The notes under the pieces were generated by a model that was given only the letters and a program-made list of their open reading frames with translations, did no database searches and was not told the DNA's origin. Shown here in pieces: positions 46,499-54,243 of a DNA stretch of 64,000 nucleotides (the stretch's first letter is position 1; every line of letters begins with the position of its first letter). This stretch comes from Psychrosphaera saromensis (GTDB lineage Bacteria; Pseudomonadota; Gammaproteobacteria; Enterobacterales; Alteromonadaceae): positions 1 to 64,000 of the forward strand of contig NZ_MSCH01000003.1 of the NCBI RefSeq assembly GCF_002954545.1, written 5' to 3'. Both the position numbers and the translations under genes were made by a program.

Positions 46499-47383
46499 AT
46501 GACTCACATCACTCTTTTAATATTATGCATTTGCTTAGCTGTAATGCCTTCACAAACATTAGCGCAGTCGGTCAAGCCTAATATCATGTTATCCAAAACT
46601 ACCTCTTTAGAAAGCATACAAGGCGATGAACAATATAATAAATATATTCTCAAAGACTACCTAGTAAGTGAAAAGCTAGATGGAGTAAGAGGGTATTGGA
46701 ATGGTCAACGTTTATTGTCACGTACAGGTAAAGTTATTAATGCACCAGCTTGGTTTATTAAAGACTTTCCGAATATAAAATTGGAAGGTGAATTGTGGAC
46801 AGCTAGAGGTCAATTTGATTTAGTCTCAGGTATTATTCGCAAACAAACACCTGTAGATAGTGACTGGCAAAAAGTGAAGTTTATGTTATTTGATGCGCCA
46901 GACTCAAAACTCATTTTCAGCCAACGACTCGACTACATAAAAAACCAGATCACGCCTTTGAAGCTGCCTTGGCTCAAACTAATAGACCATAAATCCTTTA
47001 CCGAATTCAGCCAGCTTAAAACCTATTATGAAAGCGTGATCAACAATAATGGCGAAGGTGTCATGTTAAACAAAGCCAATGCCTATTATCAAACTGGCCG
47101 TACCGACAATATAAAAAAACTAAAACCTTTCACAGACAAAGAAGCAATAGTAGTAAAACACTTAACGGGGAAAGGGAAATACAAGAATATGATGGGCTCA
47201 TTGTTAGTAAAAGATAAAAACGGCAGAGAGTTCAAAATAGGCAGCGGCTTTAGTGACCAGCAAAGACTACAGCCACCTAAAATTGGCGACATCATCAGTT
47301 ATCGTTACACAGGCACCACAAAAACAGGATTACCAAGGTTTCCGGTGTTTATTAGGGTTAGAACGGATATGGAAGAGTTGTAG
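46499..47383 (+). CDS. Exported ATP-dependent DNA ligase, Lig E type
   Basis: A 294-residue minimal ATP-dependent ligase with a signal peptide (hydrophobic residues 4-20, cleavage near TLAQ). The nucleotidyltransferase motif I is SEKLDGVRGYW with the AMP-binding Lys59. Further motifs follow: SRTGK, LEGELWTARG, FMLFDAP, EGVMLNKANAYYQTGR and VVKHLTGKGKYKNMMGSL. An OB fold ends the protein and there is no extra domain. This is the Lig E class of periplasmic ligases, proposed to mend DNA taken up or present outside the cell. Monocistronic; a heptamer array begins 4 nt after its TAG. Confidence 0.9.
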   Translation: MTHITLLILCICLAVMPSQTLAQSVKPNIMLSKTTSLESIQGDEQYNKYILKDYLVSEKLDGVRGYWNGQRLLSRTGKVINAPAWFIKDFPNIKLEGELWTARGQFDLVSGIIRKQTPVDSDWQKVKFMLFDAPDSKLIFSQRLDYIKNQITPLKLPWLKLIDHKSFTEFSQLKTYYESVINNNGEGVMLNKANAYYQTGRTDNIKKLKPFTDKEAIVVKHLTGKGKYKNMMGSLLVKDKNGREFKIGSGFSDQQRLQPPKIGDIISYRYTGTTKTGLPRFPVFIRVRTDMEEL

Positions 47384-48876: not shown

Positions 48877-50943
48877 TTACCAAATTTTAACGCGATCTTC
48901 TTTTTTCAAGTAAAGACCATTACCTTCTTTAACATCAAAGGCTTCATAAAACTCTGGCATATTCTGTAGGATACCGTTTACACGATATTCACTAGGCGAA
49001 TGTGAGTCTGTTTTAAGACGAGTTTGTAACTCTTTATCACGGTACAGACGACGCCAAATTTGGCCCCAACCTAAGAAGATACGCTGCTCAGCAGTGTAAC
49101 CGTCAAGTACTGGTGCGGCTTTTCCTTCAAGTGATAAGAAGTAAGCTTTATAAGCGACGGTTAGTCCACCTAAGTCGCCAATGTTCTCACCTAAAGTTAA
49201 GTCACCATTTACAAACTCACCAGGGAATACTTCAAACTTACTGTATTGCTCTGAGAACATTTTACCGCGAGCGTTAAATTGCTCTTCGTCAGACTCAGTC
49301 CACCAGTTACGTAAGTTACCTTCACCGTCGTATTTAGCACCTTGGTCATCAAAACCGTGGCCTAATTCGTGTCCGATAACAGCACCAATACCACCATAGT
49401 TAACCGCATCTTCCGCTTCTAAGTTAAAGAATGGAGGTTGTAAGATAGCCGCAGGGAATACAATTTCGTTCATTACTGGGTTGTAATAAGCGTTAACCGT
49501 TTGTGGCGTCATGTGCCATTCATTACGGTCAATTGGTTGGCCTAATTTTTCCAACATGTTTTGCATTTGCCATTGGTTGTAACGCATGTAGTTACCAACC
49601 AAGTCACCTGGTTTGATTTCTAGAGAAGAGTAATCTTTCCACTCATCTGGGTAACCAATTTTCGGCGTGAATTTAGATAGTTTTTCAAGTGCCGATTTTT
49701 TAGTTTCTTCACTCATCCACTCTAATTCTTTAATAGCAACTTCATAACCTTTGATTACGTTTTTAACCAACTGTTCCATACGTGCTTTTGCTTCAGGTTT
49801 AAAGTGTTCAGCTACGTACAAACGGCCTAACAATTCACCCAATACTGAATTAACACCGTTAACGGCTTGTTTCCAGCGAGGTTGTTGCTCTTCTATCCCA
49901 CGTAAATCTGTTCCATAAAAACTAAAGCTACGGTCTACAAATTGTTTAGACAATTTACTGCCGTATTCTGACACTAAATGTAGAGTTAAGTACTCTTTCC
50001 AAGTATTCACATCAACAGTATTAAATACTTCACCAAACGCTTTTAAGTAAGTATTTTGTGAGGCAATTACGCTGTCTACTTTATCTAGACCTGTTGCTTT
50101 TGCGTATACTTCCCAAGGGAAGTCACCCATATATTTTGTGAACTCTTCTGTGCTGTATTTGTTGTAACGTTTATTCGCGTCACGGCTTTCTACACGAGAC
50201 CACTGTTTTTCAGCAATTTGAGTTTCTAACGCCAAAATACGAGACGCCGCGCCTGCCGCATCTTCAGAACCAGCCATCGTTAACATATCAGTGATATAGC
50301 TCACGTATGCTGCACGGTTAGCTTTTGATTTTTCGTCGTCTTTTAAATAGTAATCACGGTCTGGTAAACCTAGACCTGATTGCACAACATACACTGCATA
50401 TTGGTCAGATTTTTTAGCGTCGTTATTTACATACCAACCTAAAGGACCACTTACGCCAGCGCTATATAAGCCACCAATTAACGATGCTACGTCGTTATGA
50501 GTTTCTACTGAATTGATTTTAGCAACCAAACCTTCTAACGGAGCAAAACCTTTTTCTTCAGCTTGAGACTCATCCATAAATGAATTATAGAAGTCACCTA
50601 ATTTCTGTTCGTCAGAACCAGGCTTATTGTTTTTTGCCTGTGATGAACGCTCAATAATAGTTTTAAGATTTTGCTGAGCATCGTCATATAACTTAGAGAA
50701 AGAACCATAGTTAGATTTATCACCAGGAATTTCCGTAGTGTCTAACCATTTACCATTGGTGTGACGATAAAAATTGTCAGCTGCTTTATAACTTTTATCC
50801 ATGTTCTCAAGTGCGATACCTGAGGTTAACGGTTTAACTTCAGCTTGTTCTGCTTGAGCATCTTGTTTTGGTGAGCATGCTGTTAACGACAACGCTCCAA
50901 GGCTCAATGCAACACTTGCTGCAATTGCACTAATTTTTTTCAT
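48877..50943 (-). CDS. M13 family (neprilysin/PepO-like) metallopeptidase lipoprotein
   Basis: A 688-residue lipoprotein: signal peptide with lipobox LTAC (Cys23). Zinc motif VIGHELGHGFDDQGAKYD (HExxH near residue 530) and the third ligand in ENIGDLGG near 590. The substrate-binding NAYYNPVMNEIVFPAAILQP and C-terminal HSPSEYRVNG are family features. It cleaves peptides in the periplasm or at the outer membrane. Monocistronic. Confidence 0.95.
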   Translation of the reverse strand: MKKISAIAASVALSLGALSLTACSPKQDAQAEQAEVKPLTSGIALENMDKSYKAADNFYRHTNGKWLDTTEIPGDKSNYGSFSKLYDDAQQNLKTIIERSSQAKNNKPGSDEQKLGDFYNSFMDESQAEEKGFAPLEGLVAKINSVETHNDVASLIGGLYSAGVSGPLGWYVNNDAKKSDQYAVYVVQSGLGLPDRDYYLKDDEKSKANRAAYVSYITDMLTMAGSEDAAGAASRILALETQIAEKQWSRVESRDANKRYNKYSTEEFTKYMGDFPWEVYAKATGLDKVDSVIASQNTYLKAFGEVFNTVDVNTWKEYLTLHLVSEYGSKLSKQFVDRSFSFYGTDLRGIEEQQPRWKQAVNGVNSVLGELLGRLYVAEHFKPEAKARMEQLVKNVIKGYEVAIKELEWMSEETKKSALEKLSKFTPKIGYPDEWKDYSSLEIKPGDLVGNYMRYNQWQMQNMLEKLGQPIDRNEWHMTPQTVNAYYNPVMNEIVFPAAILQPPFFNLEAEDAVNYGGIGAVIGHELGHGFDDQGAKYDGEGNLRNWWTESDEEQFNARGKMFSEQYSKFEVFPGEFVNGDLTLGENIGDLGGLTVAYKAYFLSLEGKAAPVLDGYTAEQRIFLGWGQIWRRLYRDKELQTRLKTDSHSPSEYRVNGILQNMPEFYEAFDVKEGNGLYLKKEDRVKIW

Positions 50944-51139: not shown

Positions 51140-51877
51140 TTAACGTTTGAACTCTTTGTAATTATCTCTAAACACTTGAAATAAATGAGTAAGATTCTCA
51201 GCCATGGTTAATTCACCAACTTGTCTGAAAATTTCAGCGGCTACTTCAACTGTGCTTAAATGGTGATCATGATATGCCTCGCGCAATTGATAATCACCTT
51301 TGGCTTTATGCGACACTTGCAGTACAGGCAACTTGGCTAAATAAGGTGACTTCACAAACATCTTTTTGGCTTGACGCCAAGTACCATCTAAAAATACTAA
51401 TAATGGACGTTTCCCGCCTAATTCTAGTTTTTCAGGTACTTGCTGAATTTGACGTTCAACTTCAACGTTGTCGTGCGGAAATACAATAATTGGATACCAG
51501 AGTTTCGAGGTTAACAATTGCTCAAGCTCAGACTCTAATTCCGTTCTCTGCCAACGATATGCAAAGTTATCTTTAATAACATCACAGATTAATTGGCCAG
51601 TGTTTGACGGTTTATAATACTCTGCATGATACATCAGCATACACACGCCAAGCGTTGAGTCGAGCTGCGGCACTAAACCACAAACACATCGAGTTTCCGC
51701 TAACAAACAAGACTCACAACGCTTTAATAAATATCCACGGGCTTTAAATTCACGAGTTGAAAACTGACGTTGATAATCTCTTAATACTCTCACCGAGTTA
51801 TTTTTAAAGCTTGGTGAGCTTTTTATATCTATAGACGGTTTTATATCTACAGGCGTTTCTATATTATTCGTGCTCAT
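51140..51877 (-). CDS. DTW domain tRNA-uridine aminocarboxypropyltransferase
   Basis: A 245-residue protein of the DTW family (TapT/YfiP, TuaA), which uses SAM to add a 3-amino-3-carboxypropyl group to uridine in tRNA. The N-terminal Cys cluster CESCLLAETRCVCG (about 53-66) likely binds zinc. The DTW-region motif is LLVFLDGTWRQAKKMF, where DGTW stands for DTW, and SHKAKGDYQLREA follows. Its start lies inside the end of the FHA gene (14-bp overlap), so it is translationally coupled to it. Confidence 0.85.
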   Translation of the reverse strand: MSTNNIETPVDIKPSIDIKSSPSFKNNSVRVLRDYQRQFSTREFKARGYLLKRCESCLLAETRCVCGLVPQLDSTLGVCMLMYHAEYYKPSNTGQLICDVIKDNFAYRWQRTELESELEQLLTSKLWYPIIVFPHDNVEVERQIQQVPEKLELGGKRPLLVFLDGTWRQAKKMFVKSPYLAKLPVLQVSHKAKGDYQLREAYHDHHLSTVEVAAEIFRQVGELTMAENLTHLFQVFRDNYKEFKR

Positions 51878-52847
51878 CAGCTTCTTTATTTCGTTGTTTA
51901 GCTTCTGTTAATGCTGAGTCAAAAAGCGCATCAAATTGATCGACCGATTGTTCAGTTGAAATGGCGGAGTTAAGTAACATGCCCGACGGTAAAACAACCG
52001 CATATGACATTGGGTATGGTTGAACCGCCCCATCGTCTTGGCTACTAAAATAGAATAAAGCAGCAATCGAGACCACTAGGGAACATGAGACAATGGAGAT
52101 ACGTTTTAAGCTCATGTTACTGGCTAGATAAAAACAGCCACAAAAGAACAGTACCATCATCACAAATTCAACAAGATCCGCGCCTAGGTTAACTAAGCCA
52201 GAATCGCCCCAGTTAAATAGTAATAACTGACCTAAACCTGCAGTAATTTGCCAAGCGACAAACATAGTAAAGCTGAACACAACCGCAGTAAAAAACTTAA
52301 CGTCTTTTTTAAATACCCGAGCAGAAAGTGCAATTAACAAAGGGAATAACATAAGTCCAATTGTCACTAACAAAGCGGTGGCAAATAACTTAGTCCAAAT
52401 GATGTCGTCTATCGCAGAGAAGTAAGATTTAACTAACATGCTAGAGAAGAACACTAACGCAGCAAACAATGCTAAATACCATTGGTTTGCATGACTGGCG
52501 ATATCTTCAAGTGGATTCAATTTTTTAGTTTTAGCAATAGGATGATGTGGTAATACAATTCTGATTAAATGTTTACCTATGGTAACTACGTCGCCAGATT
52601 TTAAATTGACCTGAGCACCAACATCTTTGTTTTTATTATCACGAATACCGTTAACCGAGCATTTGTCGATTAACACTAAGCTGCCATTTTCAGCTTGAAC
52701 AATCTCAGCATGATGTGGGCTGATATGTTCATCTTGTAATATAAAGTCATTCTCGTACGAGCGACCTATTTTTATAGAGTCACCTGACAACTTCTGAAAG
52801 CTTTTTACTTTATTATTACGGGTGATAAGCTCAATTATTATTTCCAT
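51864..52847 (-). CDS. FHA-domain membrane protein
   Basis: A 327-residue protein. The N-terminal FHA domain (about residues 5-95) has KIGRSYENDFILQDEHISPHHAEIV, in parts, and NGIRDNK, the phosphothreonine-binding loops. It is followed by six or so hydrophobic segments (about 125-280) and a short charged tail. FHA at the N-terminus without a signal peptide places it in the cytoplasm. It overlaps the protease gene by 10 bp and the DTW gene by 14 bp. The partner phosphoprotein is unknown and no Ser/Thr kinase is in the window. Confidence 0.85.
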   Translation of the reverse strand: MEIIIELITRNNKVKSFQKLSGDSIKIGRSYENDFILQDEHISPHHAEIVQAENGSLVLIDKCSVNGIRDNKNKDVGAQVNLKSGDVVTIGKHLIRIVLPHHPIAKTKKLNPLEDIASHANQWYLALFAALVFFSSMLVKSYFSAIDDIIWTKLFATALLVTIGLMLFPLLIALSARVFKKDVKFFTAVVFSFTMFVAWQITAGLGQLLLFNWGDSGLVNLGADLVEFVMMVLFFCGCFYLASNMSLKRISIVSCSLVVSIAALFYFSSQDDGAVQPYPMSYAVVLPSGMLLNSAISTEQSVDQFDALFDSALTEAKQRNKEADEHE

Positions 52848-54139
52848 TGAACATTCTCCATAAACTTAGCGTAAAAGGCATTGGCCGTTTGTTTTGTTAC
52901 ACCTTGTAAAAAGTATTTACCTATTAATGTTTGATCATCTTTTTCTAGCAGTAACGACGTAAATCTAACATCAAATAAACCCGCATATTGTCGATAAGCT
53001 CTTATACACATAAGACCTTTTACGGTATTACCAACTGCGTTTTCTAGAATATTTTCATTGCATTGAAAGTCAGAAACATCATCGCGGCCCGCATTATTAT
53101 GACCATAACGTGCATTCAAATTTAATGTGTATAAATGGCTTAACTGCATAGTATTTAACTTATCGCTTTCAATCCAATTGAAACCAATTTGGGCAAAACC
53201 AGTACGCAGGGAATCACTGATATAAATACTTTCTTCTAAACGGCAGTTTGAAGTTGCCTGATTATATTGTTTCTTTTCTTGGTCTTGGTTTGAGTCACCC
53301 CAACAAGGCATAAAGGTCGACATTTCGTTTGGCACAATTGCACCACCTAAAGACGTTGTCGGCCAATCGCTTGCTAATAGCTGTTGGTATAAGTCGGTTT
53401 GATTAGCGATTAATTGTTCACCAATATCTGCAAGTAAATCCACTTCTGCTGTTTTTACATTTTTATATTTATTAACCAACAACCAAAGGCGCTCAACTGG
53501 AACCAAAAAGCCGATTTGATTACCCGCGGTTGCGACATTAATACCAACCACATTGCCCGCATGGTTAACCGTTGGGCCACCTGACATACCCGGATTTATT
53601 GAACCGGTAAAGTGAATACGTTGATAAAAGCTCTTTAATTGAATCCCGTTATAAGTACCTGGAACCACTATCATGCCTAAGTCATGAGGATTACCTAAGG
53701 CAAAAAGATCGGCCCCTTTTTCAGGTTCTTGTTCAGACAGTTTAAAAAATACATCGCTGTTTGTGCCACTGGATAACAAAGCAAGGTCGTTGATAACATC
53801 AACCGCGATCACTTTTACGCTATAGGTACCTTGTTGGTCGTCAACATATTCAAGTTTGTATTTTTCAGGTGACTGCACAAAGCTAGAAATAACATGATAG
53901 TTAGTGACTAAGTTGCCATCTTTAGAAATAAAGAAACCAGTACCAATTGAAGACTTTTGTCCCGACTCCAAGTTGATTGACTTTATTTGCACTAAGGCTG
54001 GGCTAAAGGTAGTAAATAATTCATTGGCATCTTGTGCCATTACCGCCTTAGGCAACACAGTTAAACTAAGAAGCATAATAAATACGGACTGTATTCTCAC
54101 CTTAGTGTTAATTAAAAAAGGTATTTTTATTTTATTCAA
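52838..54139 (-). CDS. Exported trypsin-like serine protease
   Basis: A protease of about 433 residues with an export signal (hydrophobic MLLSLTVLPKAVMA). The catalytic triad is visible: His in NLVTNYHVI, Asp in VINDLALL, Ser in NPGMSGGPTV. The fold is that of HtrA/DegP proteases, but no PDZ domain follows. The C-terminal 200 residues have several Cys (PCWGDSNQ, SNCRLEE, FQCNEN, LMCIRAY) and no family I know. I prefer TTG 54139, which has GGAG 8 nt upstream; GTG at 54154 is also open. Its gene overlaps the FHA gene. Confidence 0.82.
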   Translation of the reverse strand: MNKIKIPFLINTKVRIQSVFIMLLSLTVLPKAVMAQDANELFTTFSPALVQIKSINLESGQKSSIGTGFFISKDGNLVTNYHVISSFVQSPEKYKLEYVDDQQGTYSVKVIAVDVINDLALLSSGTNSDVFFKLSEQEPEKGADLFALGNPHDLGMIVVPGTYNGIQLKSFYQRIHFTGSINPGMSGGPTVNHAGNVVGINVATAGNQIGFLVPVERLWLLVNKYKNVKTAEVDLLADIGEQLIANQTDLYQQLLASDWPTTSLGGAIVPNEMSTFMPCWGDSNQDQEKKQYNQATSNCRLEESIYISDSLRTGFAQIGFNWIESDKLNTMQLSHLYTLNLNARYGHNNAGRDDVSDFQCNENILENAVGNTVKGLMCIRAYRQYAGLFDVRFTSLLLEKDDQTLIGKYFLQGVTKQTANAFYAKFMENVQWK

Positions 54140-54207
54140 TGAAACAAACTCCACCTAGATAAGAAATCGCTAAATACAAAATAAACGCCTTCCAATCAGA
54201 ACAAGAA

Positions 54208-54243
54208 CAAAAATGCCGCTCCCATATAAGAGCGGCATTTATT
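54208..54243 (-). terminator. alaS terminator
   Basis: AAATGCCGCT (54211-54220) pairs with AGCGGCATTT (54231-54240); T-run on the reverse strand. Confidence 0.85.

Follow-up and report, generated by a model that had tools for sequence, protein, structure and literature searches.

MarP, a periplasmic protease of mycobacteria, broadly shares its fold with the envelope protease described here and is coupled to the inner membrane, its transmembrane helices being part of its own single chain. The S1C-NTF2 part of RsgI9 from C. thermocellum belongs to a single anti-sigma-factor chain. In type VI secretion, TagH/Fha1 and PpkA/PppA make up a threonine-phosphorylation switch that links the FHA protein with both a kinase and a phosphatase, the latter a PP2C. 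The nearest item that we found in the literature is a Bacteroides protein, NP_811686.1, listed as an FHA-FHA-trypsin fusion in a 2008 survey (PMC2605481); FHA is there joined to a trypsin-like domain, but within a single chain, and neither a five-helix partner nor a mechanism is described. A search of the open literature, which was not exhaustive, found no description of a protease-FHA pair. Here we analyse such a pair from Psychrosphaera saromensis (genome size 3.6 Mb), located in a window of 64,000 nucleotides, i.e. the whole stretch of DNA analysed.

The locus follows alaS and is transcribed from the minus strand in the order protease, FHA membrane protein, DTW-domain protein (Table 1), with Pfam matches to Trypsin_2 (E 2.7e-23), FHA (E 4.3e-13) and DTW (E 3.1e-51), respectively. 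The overlaps of 10 and 14 bp among the three genes, which a preliminary description of this DNA had reported, were confirmed, all on the minus strand. The interval between alaS and the protease gene contains a terminator-like hairpin, so alaS and the pair are probably separate transcription units. TTG at 54139, with GGAG 9 nt upstream, is a better start for the protease than GTG at 54154, and 54139 is also where the preliminary description had ended the locus. Two further genes of the window were noted. An M13 (neprilysin-type) metallopeptidase gene (48877-50943, minus strand) lies downstream of the DTW gene; it is a separate gene and is conserved in close relatives; an open reading frame at 46499-47383 resembles, from its translation only, an ATP-dependent DNA ligase (LigE-like), with a signal peptide and the motif EKLDGVRGYW.

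Table 1. Features of the protease-FHA locus in the window (residue numbers of the protease from GTG 54154)
Feature	Position	Strand	Remarks
Protease gene	52838..54154	-	438 aa from GTG 54154
Protease C-terminal domain (residues 219-438)	52841..53500	-	cysteines C284, C304, C365, C383
FHA membrane protein gene	51864..52847	-	327 aa
FHA domain (about residues 19-99), cytoplasmic by prediction	52551..52793	-	G28, R29, H46, N66 nearly invariant
Five transmembrane helices (about residues 123-269)	52041..52481	-	loop charges: N-terminus inside, C-terminus outside
C-terminal tail, predicted periplasmic (residues 270-327)	51867..52040	-	YPxY...LxP-type motif, kept in FHA-less homologues
DTW-domain (TapT-type) tRNA aminocarboxypropyltransferase candidate	51140..51877	-	lineage-specific neighbour of the pair
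Protease/FHA gene overlap	52838..52847	.	10 bp, ATGGAAATAA; 10, 13, 4, 1 or 16 nt elsewhere
FHA/DTW gene overlap	51864..51877		14 bp
Shine-Dalgarno GGAG for the FHA gene	52856..52859	-	inside protease C-terminal codons
Terminator-like hairpin	54211..54240	-	between alaS and the protease gene

The first gene encodes a protein with a signal-peptide-like N-terminus and, as in the HtrA/Do proteases, a trypsin-like domain with a His-Asp-Ser triad, recognised in both the sequence and the Foldseek comparison; its residues H87, D123 and S191 are kept in 106 of 106 proteins. The AlphaFold2 model of the mature protease (mean pLDDT 89.7) found its best structural matches in HtrA, DegS and Deg proteases, although this whole-model search is dominated by the HtrA domain and yielded no fold for the C-terminal domain by itself. 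Unlike HtrA/Do/DegS, where at least one C-terminal PDZ domain is expected for HtrA/Do, the protein yielded no PDZ in a Pfam domain search and has a four-cysteine C-terminal domain instead. The latter is modelled as a helical linker followed by beta4-alpha-beta4-alpha; profile searches found nothing above noise in Pfam and no sequence relative in the PDB, and its origin as a PDZ remnant was not supported. All four cysteines are conserved in 106/106 proteins and likely form two disulfides. An exported protease devoid of PDZ, with a cysteine-bearing C-terminal domain of no known family, is what the preliminary description had proposed, and these searches bear it out.

In profile comparisons the protease reached 76 of 416 bits with TIGR02037, far under the NCBIfam cut-off, and 50.6 of 423 bits with DegS, from which its N-terminus and the lack of PDZ also separate it. 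The likeness to MarP was weak (54.4 of 250 bits), and the protease has no multi-pass membrane region of its own, the helices sitting here in the FHA-bearing partner. Judged from the sequence, with no PDZ, no helices of its own and scores far under the cut-offs, the protease is not a member of the Do, DegS or MarP families. RsgI9 S1C-NTF2 (PDB 7sjy), one of the top structural matches, resembles the protease in that its HtrA-like domain precedes a domain other than PDZ, but lacks FHA. TagH matched the FHA protein weakly (41.8 of 120 bits) and in the FHA region only, the membrane partner and the protease are of other families than those of the TagH/Fha1 system, and no type VI secretion genes were found among the neighbours identified. 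On the profile score and these neighbours, TagH identity and membership of the type VI threonine-phosphorylation system were rejected. In contrast to HtrA/Do/DegS, the protease seems to be regulated by a second protein, located in the membrane, and we read the module as working like a regulated HtrA-type protease with such a regulator.

The two genes were found together far beyond Psychrosphaera. In 98 of 100 further loci (20 of the same order and 80 from named genomes, among them Colwellia, Rheinheimera, Paraglaciecola, Thalassotalea and Bowmanella, with some genomes counted twice), the FHA gene overlaps the protease gene, by 10 nt in 89 of the 98 and otherwise by 13, 4, 16 or 1 nt; of the remaining two loci, one runs into a contig end and the other has a truncated FHA gene. 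Likewise, the protease gene comes first in all 22 relatives whose FHA partner is full-length, with an overlap of 10 or 13 nt. A Shine-Dalgarno core lies 4-16 nt before the FHA start, within the protease gene, at 83 of 104 junctions, which fits translational coupling. Across the class, a profile built from the C-terminal domain of the protease had matches in 24 of 369 sampled genomes, and the next gene at the 22 loci of this survey was a same-strand FHA gene in 20, an FHA-less membrane gene in one and cut off by a contig end in one. When the same 369 genomes were searched with a profile covering the entire FHA protein, the matches listed, down to about 52 bits, included full-length hits in 20 genomes, all of them within the 24 that have the protease; in one further genome of the 24 the FHA gene runs off a contig end. 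No full-length FHA partner was seen without the protease among the matches listed for the 369 genomes, the others covering the FHA domain only. At the phylum level, the C-terminal domain was detected in five genomes outside Gammaproteobacteria, and these loci, with three further ones of the class, have an adjoining, overlapping FHA gene in 8/8 cases, the start codons and hence the overlap length being uncertain in the GC-rich ones. The pair is thus present in further gammaproteobacterial families and in other classes of Proteobacteria; no match was obtained in plasmid records.

Clustering of the flanking proteins placed the pair among 41 upstream and 27 downstream gene clusters, so that the adjacency reflects more than inherited local synteny. 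Bacterial genes often overlap by 4-13 nt, and the arrangement could in principle be genome compaction only, with two proteins that do not work together; the one-to-one presence, the constant order and an adjacency that persists in more than one class and amid the 41 different upstream contexts make this scarcely credible. It should be added that the correlated pairwise distances of the protease and FHA proteins indicate co-inheritance only, not contact. The conserved unit is a widespread two-gene module of a protease and an FHA membrane protein, and the coupling of a periplasmic protease to such a protein, first suggested for this locus, holds through many families.

The third gene is a different matter. 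Its product is a member of PF03942 (174 bits, cut-off 33.7), and described DTW enzymes of the TapT/YfiP type match this gene, not the module (PMC7026641). The preliminary description had counted it in the unit, and the overlapping, co-directional genes in Psychrosphaera could suggest a three-gene operon with a functional tie between tRNA modification and the pair. Such a tie is very improbable, as Psychrosphaera and one unclassified close MAG (L129, same contig as G006) are the only places where DTW was seen next to the pair. A three-gene unit is ruled out, DTW being one of the 27 downstream clusters; the gene after the pair is elsewhere trpS, TANGO2, GGDEF, a response regulator, a kinase or others. 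The trio is confined to close relatives, an outcome which the preliminary description had itself named as speaking against it, while the survey of protease and FHA co-occurrence that it called for shows the pair to hold with or without DTW. A TANGO2-family gene lies directly downstream of the pair in L050, L051, L054, L056, L058 and about 20 more loci, with an overlap of 1 nt in some of them, and appears to be a second lineage-specific rider comparable to DTW.

The second protein of the pair is built of an FHA domain, five long helices and a tail (AlphaFold2, pLDDT 89.6). Loops 2 and 4 are rich in lysine and arginine and loops 1 and 3 are not, a distribution that predicts a cytoplasmic FHA domain and a periplasmic tail. 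The FHA domain has GarA, OdhI and FhaA among its top Foldseek matches and shows the conserved Gly-Arg, His and Asn-Gly of the FHA fold, with G28 in 119/119 members, R29 in 117/119, N66 in 118/119 and H46 in 116/119. In canonical phosphothreonine-binding FHA domains an arginine and a serine contact the phosphate; position 43, that of the serine, is Ser in 29/119 (including the P. saromensis protein) and Cys in 78/119. R29 is lost in L204 and L209, the former (G521) having R29A.

One family (f175) departs from this pattern. The protease is present in 12/12 of its genomes; among the 11 partners that could be read, however, six have no FHA domain, three lack its arginine and two keep GR (decay or loss at L229-L238, L187, L209 and L210). 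The FHA-less partners align with the whole helical region and the tail (hhalign 96.9%, E 1.7e-10), including YPxY...LLP. PF00069 had no match in 7/12 of these genomes and partial matches (40-53 bits) in 5/12, with no strong Ser/Thr kinase match in any of the 12. The loss of FHA and the lack of kinases agree at the level of the family only, not genome by genome, since the correlation is inexact: G687 has GR and no kinase match, and G688 has GH and a kinase-like match. Outside f175, G521 combines R29A with the presence of kinases. As protease, helices and tail are kept where FHA is lost, we read the protease and the membrane protein as the core of the system, with FHA as its input module.

The membrane protein might, on another reading, be an anchor or chaperone of the protease whose FHA domain is a structural or docking module that need not read phosphothreonine. 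The absence of the domain from six of the 11 f175 partners, the prevalence of Cys at position 43 and the missing Arg29 of L204 and L209 are all compatible with this. Against it, each of G28, R29, H46 and N66 occurs in 97-100% of members at a mean identity of the domain of 35%, which is hard to explain without a ligand, and we consider a phosphorylation-independent role rather unlikely. The phosphothreonine reading of the preliminary description is in any case not universal, with serine 43 mostly replaced and the domain degraded or lost in f175.

A search for a co-occurring Ser/Thr kinase had been proposed from the outset. At the genome level the result is uninformative, since kinases occur in 325/369 sampled genomes (88%); they are present in 22/24 genomes with the pair, the two without being f175 members. 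In one family (f7) the pair is directly followed by a Ser/Thr kinase gene of the same strand in 6/6 genomes that have it, but f7 genomes that lack the pair also hold orthologues of that kinase, along with many other kinases, and the adjacency is therefore modest evidence; a dependence of the pair on this kinase was rejected on the same ground. At L192/L219 and L193/L220, two loci from other families, a kinase-PP2C-rph-rdgB run leads co-directionally into the pair, the PP2C being identified by Pfam in L192 and the kinases by a profile built in this analysis. The two separate kinds of link are suggestive of a kinase input. No kinase adjoins the pair in the loci of the host family, Alteromonadaceae, that were examined.

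Several Ser/Thr kinases are encoded in the host genome, together with a single FHA gene besides that of the pair. This FHA gene (331 aa) lies directly downstream of a gene for a 1090-aa Ser/Thr kinase (G000:C6, about 1104284-1108639; L057:9285-13640), which is a candidate writer for FHA ligands. Two kinase fusions were noted at other loci: a single-chain PP2C-Ser/Thr kinase protein beside a gene resembling a transporter (L061:5869-7695), and a 1660-aa NERD-kinase-AAA helicase protein beside a large ATPase-like gene (L063:4667-9649), in what looks like a defence island.

With moderate confidence, we favour as the best explanation a two-gene complex in which kinase signalling gates the periplasmic protease through its FHA membrane partner. 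The first gene makes a periplasmic HtrA-like protease whose PDZ is replaced by a probably disulfide-bonded C-terminal domain, and the second, translationally coupled gene makes a five-helix inner-membrane protein with a cytoplasmic N-terminal FHA domain and a short, conserved tail that is predicted to be periplasmic. The two proteins most likely associate in a complex, with the protease held or regulated by the tail and helices of its partner. FHA would, in most lineages, dock a protein that one of the cell's Ser/Thr kinases has phosphorylated on threonine, and this docking may switch or localise the protease, i.e. control it from the inside out. The pairing, the overlap, the domain make-up, the invariant catalytic residues, the five predicted helices and the modularity of FHA are well established by the survey and the models, whereas the complex, the contact of tail and protease, the dependence on phosphothreonine and the direction of signalling are inferred from them.

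The opposite direction was the one suggested by the preliminary description, which saw an envelope-to-cytoplasm unit: the protease would sense an envelope condition, act on the periplasmic tail and change FHA binding in the cytoplasm, in a logic similar to that of DegS-RseA. A conserved tail that is predicted to be periplasmic, an invariant triad and a kinase linked in two settings could all serve such a route. However, the FHA-less versions of f175 have no cytoplasmic output domain and yet keep protease, helices and tail, and the protease has no PDZ-type sensor. Outside-in signalling is thus unlikely, and the pattern of FHA loss fits cytoplasm-to-envelope control better. More tentatively, we propose that the pair may be a hitherto undescribed two-gene system, widespread in Proteobacteria, in which cytoplasmic threonine phosphorylation, read by the FHA domain of a five-helix membrane protein, would gate a dedicated periplasmic protease with a new cysteine-containing regulatory domain in place of PDZ.

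The known cues that control Gram-negative envelope proteases come from the periplasm or the outer membrane. Control of an envelope protease by cytoplasmic Ser/Thr phosphorylation, if true, would be a new route. The C-terminal domain of the protease, for its part, lies outside every Pfam family. The constant gene pair makes the idea of cytoplasmic control directly testable, and the f175 members, which have lost FHA and kept the rest, represent a natural experiment. If the proposal is correct, it would assign a function to Ser/Thr kinases and FHA proteins that are so far orphans in Proteobacteria, marine ones among them.
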